Below are positions 9,014-20,365 of a stretch of DNA of 20,365 bases, piece by piece. The stretch is from a virus. The position numbers and the translations under genes are program-made. Numbering within the stretch: position 1 is the first letter of the stretch; each line of letters begins with the position of its first letter. Under the pieces are notes generated by a model. The model was not told the origin of the DNA. It did not search any database and was given only the letters and a program-made list of their open reading frames with translations. The DNA is taken from the IMG/VR virus record IMGVR_UViG_3300008450_000609, positions 1-20,365 of that record; one strand, given 5' to 3'.

Positions 9014-9469
9014 ATGAAAAAGTGGTGTGTATACGAATTAGTAAATTTAATGGGAACGGTTGAATGGGTAGGAGAAACTACTAGATACAAAAGACGAATG
9101 TACGAACATACTAAAATAAAACCAAAGGATACACAGAGAAATGGTTATTTTTATGGAAGACAAGATATAATGATGAATATAGTACACGAGTTTGATAATA
9201 GAAAAGATGCTCTAGAATTAGAAAGTGAATTGAAAACATTTTATGGATTACCATTGAGTGAGAAAGAAGGTAGGTTAAAAGGAGCTTTAAAAGGTGGAAA
9301 ATCTGCAGTTGAATCAGGACAATTAAAGTCAGTATGTAGTATGGGAGGAAAAATTGGTGGAAAGATAGCAGGTAAGTTACAATCACAAAAGGAATACATT
9401 TGTCCAAATTGCAATAGAAAAGGAAGAGGAAATAGATTCGTATCACATATTAAAAATTGTAAAATATAA
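9014..9469 (+). CDS. GIY-YIG-type homing endonuclease (free-standing)
   Basis: A 151-residue protein. Residues 5-35 fit the GIY-YIG nuclease core: CVYEL (GIY-like strand, residues 5-9), VEWVG (YIG-like strand, 16-20), then ETTRYKRRMYEH with Arg24/Arg28 and His32; Glu at about residue 70 in ALELESELK is a candidate metal-binding residue. A Lys/Gly-rich linker (GGKIGGKIAGK, ~111-121) resembles NUMOD-type DNA-binding repeats, and residues 130-149 form CPNC-x11-H-x3-C, a zinc finger. Such enzymes cut intronless or gene-free alleles to spread their own gene. It sits between two tail genes with its own promoter-like site and is likely a mobile insertion. Confidence 0.75.
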   Translation: MKKWCVYELVNLMGTVEWVGETTRYKRRMYEHTKIKPKDTQRNGYFYGRQDIMMNIVHEFDNRKDALELESELKTFYGLPLSEKEGRLKGALKGGKSAVESGQLKSVCSMGGKIGGKIAGKLQSQKEYICPNCNRKGRGNRFVSHIKNCKI

Positions 9470-16551: not shown

Positions 16552-16737
16552 TTAGGATAAATCTACACCTCTATTCATTTGTTTTAGAAATGAATTTAAT
16601 TTTCTGTATCTACTTTCAGTAATATGAAATCCGATAGATTCTAATGCATCTACCATTCTTCCCCAATGCGATGTTCCTGCTACTTTCTCTTTGGTTTGTG
16701 AGAATACTTCGTTTAGCAATTTCTCTGTAAGTTTCAT
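16552..16737 (-). CDS. Small hypothetical protein (61 aa)
   Basis: A helical protein (LTEKLLNEVFSQTKEK, MVDALESIGFHITESRYRKL) with basic and aromatic residues, last gene of the - strand operon. The start is fixed by the CCTAAAACA leader 9 bp upstream. The helix-turn-helix-like spacing in the second half is suggestive but not diagnostic. No family recognised. Confidence 0.65.
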   Translation of the reverse strand: MKLTEKLLNEVFSQTKEKVAGTSHWGRMVDALESIGFHITESRYRKLNSFLKQMNRGVDLS

Positions 16738-16746
16738 AACGATTTG

Positions 16747-16755
16747 TGTTTTAGG
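16747..16755 (-). promoter_or_regulatory. CCTAAAACA leader of the 61-aa gene
   Basis: On the - strand, CCTAAAACA ends 9 bp before the ATG. The same element precedes several neighbouring genes at the same distance and probably helps set the translation start. Confidence 0.6.
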
Positions 16756-16757
16756 GG

Positions 16758-16970
16758 TTATAGTTTATATAAAATAGAATTTAGTTCAGCAATTGTTCGT
16801 TTTTTAGAAGGTATTGTATCTTCTATCAATTGAGTTTTTTTTGCTTTATTTCTCCTAAATTCATTTTCAACATAAGATTCATCGTATCGTAATGAGTTCT
16901 CATACGATGATAACGTATTCAATAAAATACCTTTTACAAATTCTAATTCAGTTTGTGTTAATGTGTTCAT
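16758..16970 (-). CDS. Small hypothetical protein (70 aa), coiled coil
   Basis: A charged helical protein: TQTELEFVKGILLNTLSSY, then ENEFRRNKAKKTQL and KKRTIAELNSILYKL. No membrane segment or catalytic motif. Start supported by the CCTAAAACA leader 9 bp upstream. Function unknown; one of a set of small early-type genes. Confidence 0.65.
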   Translation of the reverse strand: MNTLTQTELEFVKGILLNTLSSYENSLRYDESYVENEFRRNKAKKTQLIEDTIPSKKRTIAELNSILYKL

Positions 16971-16979
16971 AACTTTTTT

Positions 16980-16988
16980 TGTTTTAGG
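16980..16988 (-). promoter_or_regulatory. CCTAAAACA leader of the 70-aa gene
   Basis: On the - strand CCTAAAACA, inside the longer shared TTAAACCCTAAAACA, ends 9 bp before the start codon. The 15-base version is repeated before the 81-aa gene that starts at 18093. Confidence 0.6.
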
Positions 16989-16994
16989 GTTTAA

Positions 16995-17138
16995 TTAATT
17001 ATTTTCGTAGTATTGGAATATCTCCTCTTCCAACTCTTCTATATCCAATCTCATATTTTCATCATACTCTGTTGATTGTGAATACTCTTCTTTCAAATCA
17101 ATCAATCTCATTTCTAATTGTTCGATGTAACTTTCCAT
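16995..17138 (-). CDS. Small acidic coiled-coil protein (47 aa)
   Basis: ATG at 17136-17138 and TAA at 16995-16997. The product is very acidic and helical (YIEQLEMRLIDLKEEY, then LDIEELEEEIFQYYENN). It fits between its neighbours with ~20-bp gaps and has an A-rich leader (ACTTAAACAAATAAAAAA), a weaker version of the motif used by the other genes. Acidic small early phage proteins sometimes mimic DNA, but nothing here shows this. Confidence 0.6.
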   Translation of the reverse strand: MESYIEQLEMRLIDLKEEYSQSTEYDENMRLDIEELEEEIFQYYENN

Positions 17139-17158
17139 TTTTTTATTTGTTTAAGTGT

Positions 17159-17365
17159 TTATTGATTTTGGAACTCTAATGAATTTAATTTTTCTAAATC
17201 TTCTTTATGCCAACGGATAACTAGTTTGGTTGCTTCCATTTCTTTTTTGATTTCTTCTATACGTTTTGCCATTTCTGTTAACCATTCTTCGTAAGAAGAA
17301 ATTTGTTCAGTAATCTCTTTAATTCTTTTTTCTTTTTGTTTTTCAAAGGTTTCTAATGTGTACAT
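17159..17365 (-). CDS. Small coiled-coil protein (68 aa)
   Basis: A Lys/Glu-rich, continuous helix (FEKQKEKRIKEITEQISSY, MAKRIEEIKKEMEATKLVI) very likely to form a coiled coil. The leader (CCCTTAAAACTTAAACA) carries a modified form of the shared element further upstream. No known family. Confidence 0.65.
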   Translation of the reverse strand: MYTLETFEKQKEKRIKEITEQISSYEEWLTEMAKRIEEIKKEMEATKLVIRWHKEDLEKLNSLEFQNQ

Positions 17366-17391
17366 AATTGTTTTTGTTTAAGTTTTAAGGG

Positions 17392-17565
17392 TTATTTATT
17401 TAATTCTTGAAGTGATTTTTCTAAATCGGAAATCCTCGATTGGATGTTCTTCGCGGTTTCAGCAATGTGTCCCCAATAGGATAACATCTCTTTTTGTGAT
17501 GCAATCTCATCTAGGATGATTTGTCTCTTTCTTGATAGGAAATCTGAAGTGGTTATGGTATTCAT
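17392..17565 (-). CDS. Small coiled-coil protein (57 aa)
   Basis: The start is placed at 17565 (MNTITTSDFL) rather than an in-frame ATG at 17637, because the latter lies upstream of the promoter at 17603-17633 and the 24 extra residues do not look like the rest. The protein is helical (FLSRKRQIILDEIASQKEM, then QSRISDLEKSLQELNK). The leader here has CCTAA and AATT but not the full shared element. Confidence 0.6.
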   Translation of the reverse strand: MNTITTSDFLSRKRQIILDEIASQKEMLSYWGHIAETAKNIQSRISDLEKSLQELNK

Positions 17566-17602
17566 AATTAGGGGGGTTAGGGGTTGAACTCTCATTACCT
17601 TA

Positions 17603-17633
17603 CAAACATACGAAATTCTGGCTTCATATCCAA
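17603..17633 (-). promoter_or_regulatory. Internal promoter of the small-gene operon
   Basis: On the - strand: TTG (17631-17633), 20-bp spacer, TATGTTTG (17603-17610), a full match to the flavobacterial -7 consensus TAnnTTTG. Preceded by TTCG, as in the promoter at 18600. It would transcribe the five downstream genes. Confidence 0.7.
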
Positions 17634-17645
17634 GCACTTTCGTAA

Positions 17646-17843
17646 TTATTTTTCGGTTTCTTTTCGTAATTTCTTATCAATTCTATTGATAAGTTCAAAT
17701 GAACCATCAATACAATATGATTCAAAACCCATAGTAATACCAATCAGTTCTGATAAGGTATACTTCCTATCCTGTCCATTAACCCACTCTACTGCGGATT
17801 TAAGAGATGATTGCCTGATAATTTGTCTTTGAGTATCGTTCAT
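17646..17843 (-). CDS. Small hypothetical protein (65 aa)
   Basis: Start chosen at 17843 (MNDTQRQIIRQSS), directly after CCTAAAACA; an in-frame ATG seven codons earlier lacks this leader. The protein is helical with a mixed middle (AVEWVNGQDRKYTLSELIGI) and a basic C-terminus (NRIDKKLRKETEK). No family recognised. The AACAATGA around its start is complementary to the terminator loop of the RNA at 19935-20044. Confidence 0.6.
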   Translation of the reverse strand: MNDTQRQIIRQSSLKSAVEWVNGQDRKYTLSELIGITMGFESYCIDGSFELINRIDKKLRKETEK

Positions 17844-17852
17844 TGTTTTAGG
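17844..17852 (-). promoter_or_regulatory. CCTAAAACA leader fused to the start of the 65-aa gene
   Basis: On the - strand the motif runs directly into the start codon (CCTAAAACA-ATG), unlike the other copies, which lie 8-9 bp upstream. It also contains the stop codon of the upstream gene. Confidence 0.55.
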
Positions 17853-18093
17853 AGTTAGTAACATAGTGAGAAGGACAAATCTCTAATTTTTGGTTATCTA
17901 ACCACTTCAGTTTGTAATTGATACATTTAATTTGTAATTTATAATTAGCTATATCTTCTTTACTGCCTGATTGTTTTGTGATTTGTAGGTTGTGGCGTGC
18001 ACGTTCTAACTCATCACACAACATATACTCTATTGCGTATAAATACGATGCGAGACTTCGTTGTAATCGTAACTCTTCTACTTGCTTTTTCAT
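17848..18093 (-). CDS. Small helical protein (81 aa)
   Basis: A helical protein (KKQVEELRLQRSLASYLYAI, LCDELERARHNLQITKQ, YKLQIKCINYKLKWLDNQK) with a Cys-containing polar tail. Start supported by the shared TTAAACCCTAAAACA element 8 bp upstream. Its stop overlaps the leader of the next gene. No function known. Confidence 0.65.
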   Translation of the reverse strand: MKKQVEELRLQRSLASYLYAIEYMLCDELERARHNLQITKQSGSKEDIANYKLQIKCINYKLKWLDNQKLEICPSHYVTNS

Positions 18094-18101
18094 AACTGTT
18101 T

Positions 18102-18110
18102 TGTTTTAGG
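18102..18110 (-). promoter_or_regulatory. CCTAAAACA leader of the 81-aa gene
   Basis: On the - strand the motif ends 8 bp before the ATG and lies within TTAAACCCTAAAACA, as upstream of the 70-aa gene. Confidence 0.6.
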
Positions 18111-18120
18111 GTTTAAGGTA

Positions 18121-18136
18121 GGGAGGTTTCCCTCCC
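18121..18136 (-). promoter_or_regulatory. GC-rich hairpin with GAAA tetraloop on the - strand
   Basis: GGGAGG-GAAA-CCTCCC read on the - strand: a 6-bp GC stem closed by a GNRA loop, between the 130-aa gene and the next gene. There is no T run downstream on the - strand, so it is more likely an mRNA processing or stability element; read on the + strand it is followed by TTTTATT and could stop antisense transcription. Confidence 0.5.
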
Positions 18137-18142
18137 CTTTTA

Positions 18143-18535
18143 TTAAATATATTGTTTTGATGATTCGTAAATTGGTAACCAATAATCATTGTAAGTTTTT
18201 TCGATACCATTCCTTAACCATCTTAAAAACTCTTTATTAGTTTCCTCATCTGTAAAACCTTCTTTGATGCACTCACTAATTGGAAACTCTCCAACTAATA
18301 TATTATACACCCATGATGAAGAGAAACTAACTTTGTAATTACCTTTATTTGTTTCCACAATTTGAAAACCGAAATCCCATTCACTGTGGTAATACATAGT
18401 TCCCATACAAAAACCTTCTACTAATTCATTACCATTGTTATAAGAGGTTTCCCAACCTTTACCCCATTTACCCATTGATTTGAAATCTTCTGTTGAAAGA
18501 ACGATTACTGATTTGTTGTTTTGTACCTTTTTCAT
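18143..18535 (-). CDS. Hypothetical protein (130 aa), first gene of the small-gene operon
   Basis: A mixed alpha/beta, aromatic-rich protein (FKSMGKWGKGWETSYNNG, MYYHSEWDFGFQIVET, FSSSWVYNILVGEF, NKEFLRWLRNGIEKTYNDYW) without signal peptide or membrane segment. It is the largest member and the first to be transcribed from the promoter near 18600, as expected for an early gene, but I recognise no family. The start ATG has the CTAAAACA leader 8 bp upstream, and AACAATGA around the start is complementary to the second RNA loop. Confidence 0.7.
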   Translation of the reverse strand: MKKVQNNKSVIVLSTEDFKSMGKWGKGWETSYNNGNELVEGFCMGTMYYHSEWDFGFQIVETNKGNYKVSFSSSWVYNILVGEFPISECIKEGFTDEETNKEFLRWLRNGIEKTYNDYWLPIYESSKQYI

Positions 18536-18721: not shown

Positions 18722-18765
18722 ATAGTGTAGAGAATGTGCTATGAGAAAAATAATTACTGAAGGAC

Positions 18766-18796
18766 TTGGTAATTTGAAAAACTTATAGTATATTCG
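18766..18796 (+). promoter_or_regulatory. Promoter of the leader RNA and replication gene
   Basis: TTG (18766-18768), 20-bp spacer, TATATTCG (18789-18796), differing from TAnnTTTG at one base, with G directly upstream as in other sites here. A transcript would begin at about 18803, just before the structured RNA. Confidence 0.6.
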
Positions 18797-18802
18797 ATAC
18801 AT

Positions 18803-18914
18803 CAATTAGAAAAAACATATAGACTCGTACTCTATATTTAAGATAACGGAAGAGATTCCAACTTAAAACCCAAAGAGACAGAATGTACGAGATTCAGTTT
18901 CAATGGGTTTTTTT
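18803..18914 (+). ncRNA. Structured leader RNA with predicted loop-loop kissing interaction
   Basis: Three hairpins follow each other without linkers. H1: 18817-18823 pairs with 18831-18837, seven perfect pairs, loop CTCGTAC (18824-18830). H2: 18838-18842 with 18862-18866, an internal loop, then GGAA (18848-18851) with TTCC (18856-18859) around a GAGA (GNRA) tetraloop. H3: outer stem 18867-18872 with 18904-18909 (extendable by two pairs if H2 opens), a symmetric AA/AA internal loop, inner stem 18875-18884 with 18892-18901 (one G-U, one A-A mismatch), loop GTACGAG (18885-18891), then a T run to 18914. The H1 and H3 loops are perfect reverse complements over all seven bases. The RNA ends 8 nt before the replication gene start, so it could act in cis as an attenuator or be released as a ~110-nt RNA. 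No known family recognised. Confidence 0.65.
18865..18914 (+). terminator. Terminator/attenuator hairpin before the replication gene
   Basis: This is H3 of the leader RNA: up to eight outer pairs AAAACCCA (18865-18872) with TGGGTTTT (18904-18911), an inner 10-position stem, and seven T from 18908 to 18914. It ends 8 nt before the ATG at 18922, so expression of the downstream gene would need read-through or a separate mechanism. Confidence 0.7.
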
Positions 18915-18921
18915 ATTTAAT

Positions 18922-19713
18922 ATGAAAAAACAATATAAGTTTTTAGAAAAAGAAAATTGGTTCAAACATGATTTCCGTAGTAGGGAAGATAAGAAACTAA
19001 TTAGATTAAAGATGAAATGGAAATCATCAGCACCTATTGGTGTATTCTGGCAATTATGTGAAATGATTTACGAAAGTGCTGGATTATTAGAATATGATAT
19101 AGATGTAATATCATACAATTGTGGTGATGATGTTGAAATAGTTAAAGATGTAATTGATATGTGTTTTTTAATTACTGATGATAACTTTCTTACACACGAA
19201 ACTATTGTAGAACAATTGGATTTTAGGCAAGAATCTTATGAACAAACAAGTAAAAGAAATACTGAAAATGTTAAAAAGAGATGGGAGAAAGATAAACAAT
19301 CTAATACGAATGGTATACCACCCGTATACGAACCGAATACGAAATTATACCAACCTATACCAGAGAAGAGAGTAAAGAGTAGAGAGTTTAGAGTAGAGAG
19401 TAAAGAGTTTACAGATAAGAATAAACTACTTGCTGTATATAGTTCTGAACCTTTACCTGAAATTGAAAATACTGATATTGATTGTATGGGTATTCAATCA
19501 GATTATGAAATAACTAGACCTATGTTAGAAAGAGTTATTGATAAGTTTATTGCAGTAAATAATAGATTTAAGTTTCAATCAGTAATGAGAGAAGTAGATG
19601 AAGACTATGGTGGATTTGATAATTTAATAGAAATGTATTTACCTAATGATACATCAGCACAAAATAATTTTAAGAGTAAATTACAACAATATAAAAACGG
19701 AATATATGCTTAA
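18922..19713 (+). CDS. Replication initiator/organizer, Lin1244/Lin1753-like (DUF4373-type) N-terminus
   Basis: Start taken at 18922, after the terminator hairpin, giving 263 residues; an in-frame ATG at 18883 lies inside that hairpin. Residues ~4-105 match the Lin1244/Lin1753-like domain: ENWFKHDFRSREDKKLIRLK, then GVFWQLCEMIYESAG, and the closing TSKRNTENVKKRW, like the SxKRxxxxxxRW ending of this family. Such proteins are related to DnaD-like replication factors and serve as phage replication organizers, binding the origin and recruiting host helicase loading. The middle (~128-163) is a low-complexity linker encoded by the DNA repeats described separately; the C-terminal ~70 residues (ITRPMLERVIDKFIAVNN) are helical. 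It overlaps the next gene by 8 bp. Confidence 0.7.
   Translation: MKKQYKFLEKENWFKHDFRSREDKKLIRLKMKWKSSAPIGVFWQLCEMIYESAGLLEYDIDVISYNCGDDVEIVKDVIDMCFLITDDNFLTHETIVEQLDFRQESYEQTSKRNTENVKKRWEKDKQSNTNGIPPVYEPNTKLYQPIPEKRVKSREFRVESKEFTDKNKLLAVYSSEPLPEIENTDIDCMGIQSDYEITRPMLERVIDKFIAVNNRFKFQSVMREVDEDYGGFDNLIEMYLPNDTSAQNNFKSKLQQYKNGIYA
19304..19363 (+). repeat. Six helically phased ATAC(G/C)A iterons (candidate origin, part 1)
   Basis: ATACGAA, ATACCAC, ATACGAA, ATACGAA, ATACCAA and ATACCAG start at 19304, 19315, 19326, 19337, 19347 and 19357. Spacing is 11, 11, 11, 10, 10 bp, about one turn of DNA, so all copies face the same side of the helix. The period is not a multiple of three and the encoded peptide does not repeat, so the signal is in the DNA. 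Position inside an initiator gene resembles the phage lambda origin inside gene O. Confidence 0.75.
19369..19410 (+). repeat. Six tandem AGAGTNN heptamers (candidate origin, part 2)
   Basis: AGAGTAA, AGAGTAG, AGAGTTT, AGAGTAG, AGAGTAA, AGAGTTT start every 7 bp from 19369; a degenerate unit AGAGAAG precedes them at 19362. One strand is purine-rich. The 7-bp period is out of phase with codons, so the encoded KRVKSREFRVESKEF is a by-product. The array follows the iterons directly and could be a second protein-binding or unwinding element. Confidence 0.8.
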
Positions 19714-19897: not shown

Positions 19898-19934
19898 ACC
19901 AATTACAAAATCAATCTATGTTGTTATATAATAC

Positions 19935-20044
19935 AGATGAGCTTAATCAATACTGAATTGTTTATGCTATTTTATATTCAGTGCTCATCTACTTTTAGAT
20001 ATATGCTAAAGAGCCAGGTTCGTCATTGTTCCCTGGCTCTTTTT
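19935..20044 (+). ncRNA. Candidate small RNA with antisense-like terminator loop
   Basis: Hairpin A: AGATGAGC (19935-19942) pairs with GCTCATCT (19983-19990), then, after a 9-nt bulge, ACTGAAT (19952-19958) pairs with ATTCAGT (19976-19982) around a 17-nt loop. A linker leads to hairpin B, a perfect 11-bp terminator (20008-20018 with 20032-20042) with a 13-nt loop holding GTCATTGTT (20022-20030). That loop sequence is complementary to AACAATGAC at the start of the next gene (20137-20145). No gene fits in 19898-20140. The RNA could be cut from the 3' end of the replication transcript; a weak TATAAT at 19927 is the only local promoter candidate. Confidence 0.5.
20008..20044 (+). terminator. Strong intrinsic terminator
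   Basis: AAAGAGCCAGG (20008-20018) pairs perfectly with CCTGGCTCTTT (20032-20042), followed by more T and TTTATTT. It ends the replication transcript and forms the 3' part of the candidate small RNA. Confidence 0.9.
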
Positions 20045-20056
20045 ATTTACAGATAC

Positions 20057-20140: not shown

Positions 20141-20365
20141 ATGACACAAACTAAACACTGCTACGCATGTAGCATTACCAAACCTACCACAGACTTCTCT
20201 AAATGTAAAAAGAGCAAGGATTCCCTTCAACCAAAATGTAAGGAATGTAACAAAGTGGATAATCACAAATTCAGAACCACACTAAATCCTAAACACCATA
20301 CTCAATGGCAAAAAGATAATGCTAAAAGAGTATGTGAAATTGTCAGAAAGCATAGAGCTGCTGAT
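20141..20365 (+). CDS. Zinc-ribbon protein, HNH or endonuclease VII-like N-terminus (partial)
   Basis: The ATG at 20141 opens 75 codons that run off the window. Residues 7-36 are CYAC, then CPKCKEC-like (CxxC-x22-CxxC, Cys7, Cys10, Cys33, Cys36) in the arrangement seen at the N-terminus of phage HNH and endonuclease VII-type nucleases. The nuclease core would lie downstream, so the enzyme call is unproven. Codons are more C-rich (TAC, ACC, TTC) than in the neighbouring genes, a possible sign of separate origin. Start region AACAATGAC is the complement of the upstream RNA loop. Confidence 0.6.
   Translation, partial: MTQTKHCYACSITKPTTDFSKCKKSKDSLQPKCKECNKVDNHKFRTTLNPKHHTQWQKDNAKRVCEIVRKHRAAD

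Follow-up and report, generated by a model that had tools for sequence, protein, structure and literature searches.

Directly upstream of a replication-initiator-type gene, in the 20,365-base IMG/VR virus record analysed here in full (the window), we identified an undescribed leader RNA, predicted to be ~114 nt long, that would act in the manner of a leader attenuator and has a tertiary contact like those of riboswitches. On balance, we favour the view that it is a cis-acting 5′ leader of the phage, in which a 7-bp loop–loop helix locks the terminator hairpin to the first hairpin, so that the leader sets how much transcription continues into the initiator gene. The RNA would in this way probably set the amount of replication protein that is made.

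Anatomy of the leader in the window

The window derives from a tailed phage, with genes for a capsid-type protein, portal, tape measure and XkdF-like protease. Its small genes at 16552–18535 run leftward, and the rightward promoter lies in the divergent intergenic stretch, followed by the element and the initiator gene:

18765–18768, + strand: -33 element CTTG of a predicted Bacteroidota primary-sigma promoter, 20 nt 5′ of the -7 element
18789–18796, + strand: -7 element TATATTCG of the same predicted promoter; this layout recurs in most RNA-bearing relatives and in L296
18817–18837, + strand: hairpin H1, with a 7-bp stem and the loop CUCGUAC (18824–18830), all seven bases of which enter the loop–loop helix
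18838–18847, + strand: linker J12, UUAAGAUAAC, unpaired (consensus AAAGAUAAC), near-invariant in relatives that were fetched by protein without use of the motif
18848–18859, + strand: hairpin H2, GGAA-GAGA-UUCC, seen in the fold and through covariation to GAAC/GUUC
18860–18868, + strand: linker J23, A-rich, conserved among relatives
18869–18907, + strand: hairpin H3, with the loop GUACGAG (18885–18891) paired to the H1 loop, seen in the fold and through covariation
18908–18914, + strand: U-run (T7), forming with H3 a predicted intrinsic terminator
18922–19713, + strand: replication-initiator-type gene, Lin1244_N (Pfam PF14297), 263 aa

The -33 element reads CTTG in the window and TTTG in most relatives. 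Because this TTTG-type/-7 arrangement matches the Bacteroidota promoter consensus TTTG/TANNTTTG (PMC6847099), whose -7 box spans -12 to -5 relative to the start (PMC6847099), transcription is predicted to begin at ~18801, and the RNA from promoter to terminator is predicted to be ~114 nt long (~18801–18914). A sequence-only reading of the window had drawn this transcript at 18803–18914; its end is retained here, and its start moves to ~18801.

The minimum-free-energy fold consists of exactly H1, H2 and H3 (z = −3.56; 1 of 200 shuffles as good), so that sequence and fold agree with that reading on three hairpins and on H1 and H3 loops that are perfect reverse complements; CTCGTAC occurs in the window only at the two loop sites, both strands counted. 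H3 is built of a G+C-rich base, a small symmetric internal loop, an upper stem of ~10 bp and a 7-nt loop, and its base lies 14 nt from the initiator ATG at 18922, with seven bases, rather than the eight first given, between the U-run and the ATG. The hairpins had also been described as lacking linkers, which does not hold, as the conserved unpaired AAAGAUAAC and AAAACAAA flank H2; the GNRA cap ascribed to H2 is present in the window (GAGA), but this loop is not conserved in relatives. A TTTAAG/CTTAAA match able to close the strands that flank H2 in the window is absent as a conserved feature in the relatives.

The initiator gene product matches PF14297 at 25.3 bits (cut-off 25), and its homologues in L005 and L015 do so at 49.3 and 60.8 bits. 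Searches against PHROG gave weak matches of the window protein to primosomal proteins, and a match of the L005 homologue to phrog_2562, ‘replication initiation protein' (E 4.6e-28).

Three further features of the window were recorded. A second structured intergenic element (19933–20045) lies downstream of the initiator operon and comprises a hairpin, AGATGAGC...GCTCATCT, with a strong terminator (AGAGCCAGG...CCTGGCTCTTTTT) behind it; L001, L004, L005 and L011 gave no match to a simple pattern of this element. A free-standing GIY-YIG endonuclease gene (9014–9469) is located within the tail-gene cluster. Finally, a partial open reading frame at 20141–20365, cut by the contig end and without a Pfam match, begins with a CxxC...CxxC zinc ribbon (CYACSITKPTTDFSKCKKSKDSLQPKCKECNK) and perhaps encodes an HNH-type endonuclease.

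Compensatory change and distribution

Within a single sequence the loop match is suggestive only. Counting as comparable any 7-bp H1 and H3 of at least 4 bp with perfect 7-nt loops within 120 nt, we found such a pair in 14 of 1,000 dinucleotide shuffles of the whole window on one strand; because of the search space, the frequency expected by chance is therefore ~1 in 70 per window strand and not 1 in 4^7, as had been estimated. Homologues were first fetched with the downstream protein alone, yielding five IMG/VR loci, each of which carries the leader with loops that differ yet are compensated (CTCCCAC/GTGGGAG, GTGAGAT/ATCTCAC, ATCGCAC/GTGCGAT). Extension by a conserved-core pattern and two protein-profile searches brought this family (family 1) to 26 other IMG/VR phage contigs besides the window.

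In a 12-sequence alignment (A1), all 84 cells of the kissing pairs were paired, with double changes in five of the seven pairs. The H1 stem was 100% paired in the 12 sequences, four of its seven pairs having changed on both sides, as had eight of the 14 pairs of H3, and the covariation score of the whole structure was 0.538, compared with 0.178 for shuffles and at most 0.093 for slid structures. Loop complementarity was perfect in 13 of 13 structurally aligned variants (including the protein-found L298, L332, L281 and L282), which display ten distinct loop sequences; in L282 the H1 stem is imperfect beside the loop. The H2 stem covaries as well (GGAA/UUCC versus GAAC/GUUC) and its loop is variable (UUUAA in L004, UUAAUU in L332 and L281), conservation being highest in the unpaired strands that flank H2, AAAGAUAAC and the A-rich AAAACAAA. 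Covariation in the stems and in the loop–loop pair, for which the sequence-only reading had proposed a search, is thus found in the homologues, and loops varying without compensation, which it had named as evidence against itself, were looked for, all varying loops proving to be compensated. Comparison of the homologues indicates that the loop–loop contact is under selection. G-U pairs are frequent in H1 and H3; since the opposite strand would have A-C at these places, the element acts as RNA, and in the sense orientation of the initiator gene.

The GAAC-variant pattern retrieved no contigs beyond those of L281 and L332, and a loosened pattern run over viral contigs gave no further structural member among the matches listed. 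A permissive finder of loop complementarity, applied to all upstream regions, was too noisy to stand alone.

Rfam 15 gave no match in the window at the gathering threshold, none on the element in the five family-1 loci at E≤10 and none on the element in the family-2 loci (described below) at E≤1. These gathering and sub-threshold scans rule out a known Rfam family and bear out the earlier judgement that the RNA belongs to no described class; the homologues show it to be a genuine conserved structured RNA. Of the features that define the known systems it resembles, the element lacks an antiterminator and an Rfam match. The families published in the 2017 motif survey of Weinberg are reportedly largely contained in Rfam, and a search of the literature for such an RNA found no report with the terms used. 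Among cultured and annotated phages, blastn detected no homologous leader, and tblastn with the Lin1244 protein returned weak Porphyromonas phage matches and one other phage only; for the capsid-type protein (212–1219), P12024S is the nearest match that carries annotation, and its replication module differs. A core-pattern scan of GTDB contigs gave no locus with the structure among the matches listed, a sample of 395 Bacteroidota genomes yielded none by the covariance model of family 1 (R1, strict filters) or by the family-2 pattern, and a sample of 397 genomes of one family yielded none by the family-1 pattern. All members come from metagenomic contigs, with no cultured phage known to carry the RNA, and the carriers are uncultured phages that probably infect Bacteroidota.

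Genomic position and a second RNA family

All copies examined lie directly 5′ of a replication-type gene or operon, so that the position immediately before an initiator gene, originally noted in the window, is found there and before unrelated initiator families elsewhere. The hairpin base is 11–15 nt 5′ of the ATG in 13 of the 17 family-1 members examined; in the others the distance is no more than ~20 nt. The downstream proteins represent at least five families, namely Lin1244_N, DUF6291, phrog_6251/1701 (DnaA-like/DnaD-like), DUF1376-like and MA[KQ]RFTD, the last without a Pfam match; in L012 and L014, RNAs that are 98% identical precede genes that have no match to each other. Judged by these neighbourhoods, the RNA is tied to initiator function and not to one protein. 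A single strong copy per contig was found in 13 of 15 records tested, the remaining two carrying a weak variant (L282/L283) that the genome search missed.

Most members have upstream a TTTG/TTGG-N-TATATT promoter that matches the Bacteroidota consensus. The initiator of L296 is 94% identical to that of L295, and its promoter leads straight into the ATG without the RNA, indicating that the RNA is an optional, removable cassette between promoter and gene. Sequence comparison establishes this absence from a promoter-matched close relative, as it does the structure, the kissing pair and the position. In L299, a small open reading frame starting MENQMTRKENDYLQKEL replaces the RNA cassette after a similar promoter. 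In all family-1 members the G+C-rich hairpin base is followed at once by at least four T residues, and the gap from the U-run to the ATG is too short for another promoter; the initiator mRNA from the predicted promoter must therefore cross the predicted terminator, and on this the case for a cis-acting role chiefly rests.

A second kissing-loop leader (family 2) was found on reading the regions upstream of MA[KQ]RFTD initiators; its loci are L323, L324, L329, L333, L342 and L468–L489. Its layout is promoter, H1, a AUUAAAGAU linker, a terminator whose loop is complementary to loop 1, and a replication-type gene (MAKRFTD, Lin1244-like, DUF6291, DnaD-like or HTH); in most loci the predicted promoter ends a few bases before H1, a GTC[C/G]...GAC stem whose loop and the terminator loop match at 8 nt. 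Scanning with a pattern in which complementarity was not required returned 22 contigs, and the 8-bp match was perfect in all 22; across the 16 distinct sequences, all 128 kissing cells are paired, and five of the eight pairs are doubly changed. Compared with family 1, family 2 has an H1 of only 4 bp, an 8-bp kissing helix formed by the 5′ part of a larger loop, and no H2, and the sequence of its internal loop, GAA/AGUA, resembles a loop-E motif. Since neither of the covariance models R1 and R2 detects the other family, a common origin is unproven, and the shared AUUAAAGAU is only a hint of one.

Possible further variants occur near the same initiator family, at L326 (1903–1994), L341 (~1699–1790), L294 (~1854–1990) and L369 (~1409–1500), where a permissive search found these extra upstream segments to be complementary to terminator loops over 7–12 nt; as additional variants, L341, L294 and L369 are only suggestive.

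Proposed mechanism and alternative explanations

In the cis-acting leader that we favour, RNA polymerase would start at ~18801 at the Bacteroidota-type promoter, and H1 would fold first. The emerging bases of loop 3 could then pair with loop 1 as an H-type pseudoknot, after which the 3′ arm of H3 would close round the paired loop, leaving the terminator locked to H1 by a continuous 7-bp helix. At the U-run the polymerase would let go of a ~114-nt transcript, and expression of the initiator, which starts 7 nt further on, would depend on read-through transcripts alone. The unpaired core (AAAGAUAAC-H2-AAA) is the likely binding site for a factor, perhaps a small molecule or a protein of phage or host, that would shift this balance. 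That the leader is transcribed and terminated, that it is regulated and that it senses a signal are the parts of this scheme that we infer. The earlier inference of a regulated attenuator or a stable phage small RNA is thus supported in part.

Folding of the nascent RNA before closure of H3 predicts loop 1–loop 3 pairing in most members, compatible with H3 and, in some members, alternative to H1. In these nascent folds the arms of H3 had no other conserved partner, and no mutually exclusive antiterminator was seen; H1, the kissing helix and H3 can all form together, and the conserved state is the terminated form. As in an intrinsic terminator, a hairpin with a G+C-rich base and then a U-run lies between promoter and start codon; its strength as a terminator is uncertain because the base of H3 has only 3–5 bp beside the internal loop.

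Compatibility of all conserved helices, together with the lack of a conserved antiterminator, makes a stable trans product conceivable, and the main rival is a stable, trans-acting phage small RNA of ~114 nt with its own promoter and terminator; its kissing loops would serve to make the fold compact, and the initiator would be expressed from constitutive leakage. The complete terminated fold, in which H1, the kissing helix and H3 coexist, is what is conserved, no conserved antiterminator appears in the nascent folds, and the unpaired core is conserved as a binding site would be. We nevertheless give this explanation only a minor, if appreciable, share of our confidence, considering that family 1 always lies 11–20 nt 5′ of the initiator start across unrelated initiator families, that family 2 heads replication operons, that no second strong copy occurs in the same contig and that the initiator mRNA would cross a terminator without reason.

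The narrow spacing between hairpin base and ATG would also suit a leader acting on translation or mRNA stability, with the kissing structure shielding the 5′ end or adjoining the ribosome-binding zone and the U-run being incidental; initiation in Flavobacterium proceeds without a Shine–Dalgarno sequence and is modulated by structure around the start codon (PMC6847099). We consider this unlikely, however, as all family-1 members have the G+C-rich base and at least four T residues that a terminator would have. Still less probable is a role at the DNA level, as part of a replication origin or as a recombination joint for the exchange of initiator modules: the joining of near-identical RNAs to unrelated initiator genes and the site beside the initiator are in keeping with it, but the frequent G-U pairs, the strand specificity of the structure, the promoter aimed through the element and the existence of L296 without the element all speak against it, and any exchange of modules may be incidental. 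Chance, in the form of unrelated hairpins whose loops happen to match, would be favoured by the 14 shuffled windows with a comparable pair, but is ruled out because the loops of the homologues form ten different pairs that are always perfectly compensated.

Several known systems share parts of the design of the cis-acting leader. In ColE1, complementary seven-base hairpin loops of RNA I and RNA II form a loop–loop helix that controls replication initiation, and the likeness lies in this seven-base kissing helix and its replication-initiation context; the ColE1 loops, however, are on two antisense transcripts that pair in trans, whereas the phage leader has both loops in one sense-strand RNA before a protein initiator, one of them being the terminator loop. 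Plasmid rep leaders of the pT181 and pIP501 type place a terminator just before the replication-initiator gene but depend on an antisense RNA and on structures that exclude one another, in contrast to the phage leader, whose conserved helices are all compatible and for which no conserved alternative fold was seen. Cobalamin (L5–L13) and purine (L2–L3) riboswitches combine a loop–loop contact, a conserved unpaired core and an expression platform, and the phage element resembles them in being a compact, aptamer-like leader with a loop–loop contact and a conserved core; it differs in that it has no Rfam match, its terminator hairpin itself kisses and it always precedes phage initiators. HK022 put, lambda oop and P4 CI RNA, leader or early-transcript RNAs encoded by phages, are likewise short and structured and control the expression of early or replication genes via termination or antitermination; the anatomy of the present element differs from theirs, it matched no Rfam family, and we know of no intramolecular loop–terminator kissing in any of the three.

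More tentatively, and with rather less confidence than we place in the cis-acting leader itself, the elements may constitute a novel class of phage leader that comprises two families or more. The terminator would here be half of an intramolecular kissing complex forming a sensor-controlled replication gate, a signal read by the core would switch the initiator gene on or off, and the cassette would have been installed before many unrelated initiators. Few conserved structured RNAs have tertiary contacts for which compensation argues so strongly, and those located at the start of phage replication are fewer still. If confirmed, the finding would mean that phages time replication by a tertiary switch in RNA that uses the terminator loop as one of its contact surfaces, and would provide a portable, exchangeable regulatory part for use in Bacteroidota; with two RNA families converging on, or diverging from, one design, loop–terminator kissing would also become testable as a general principle.
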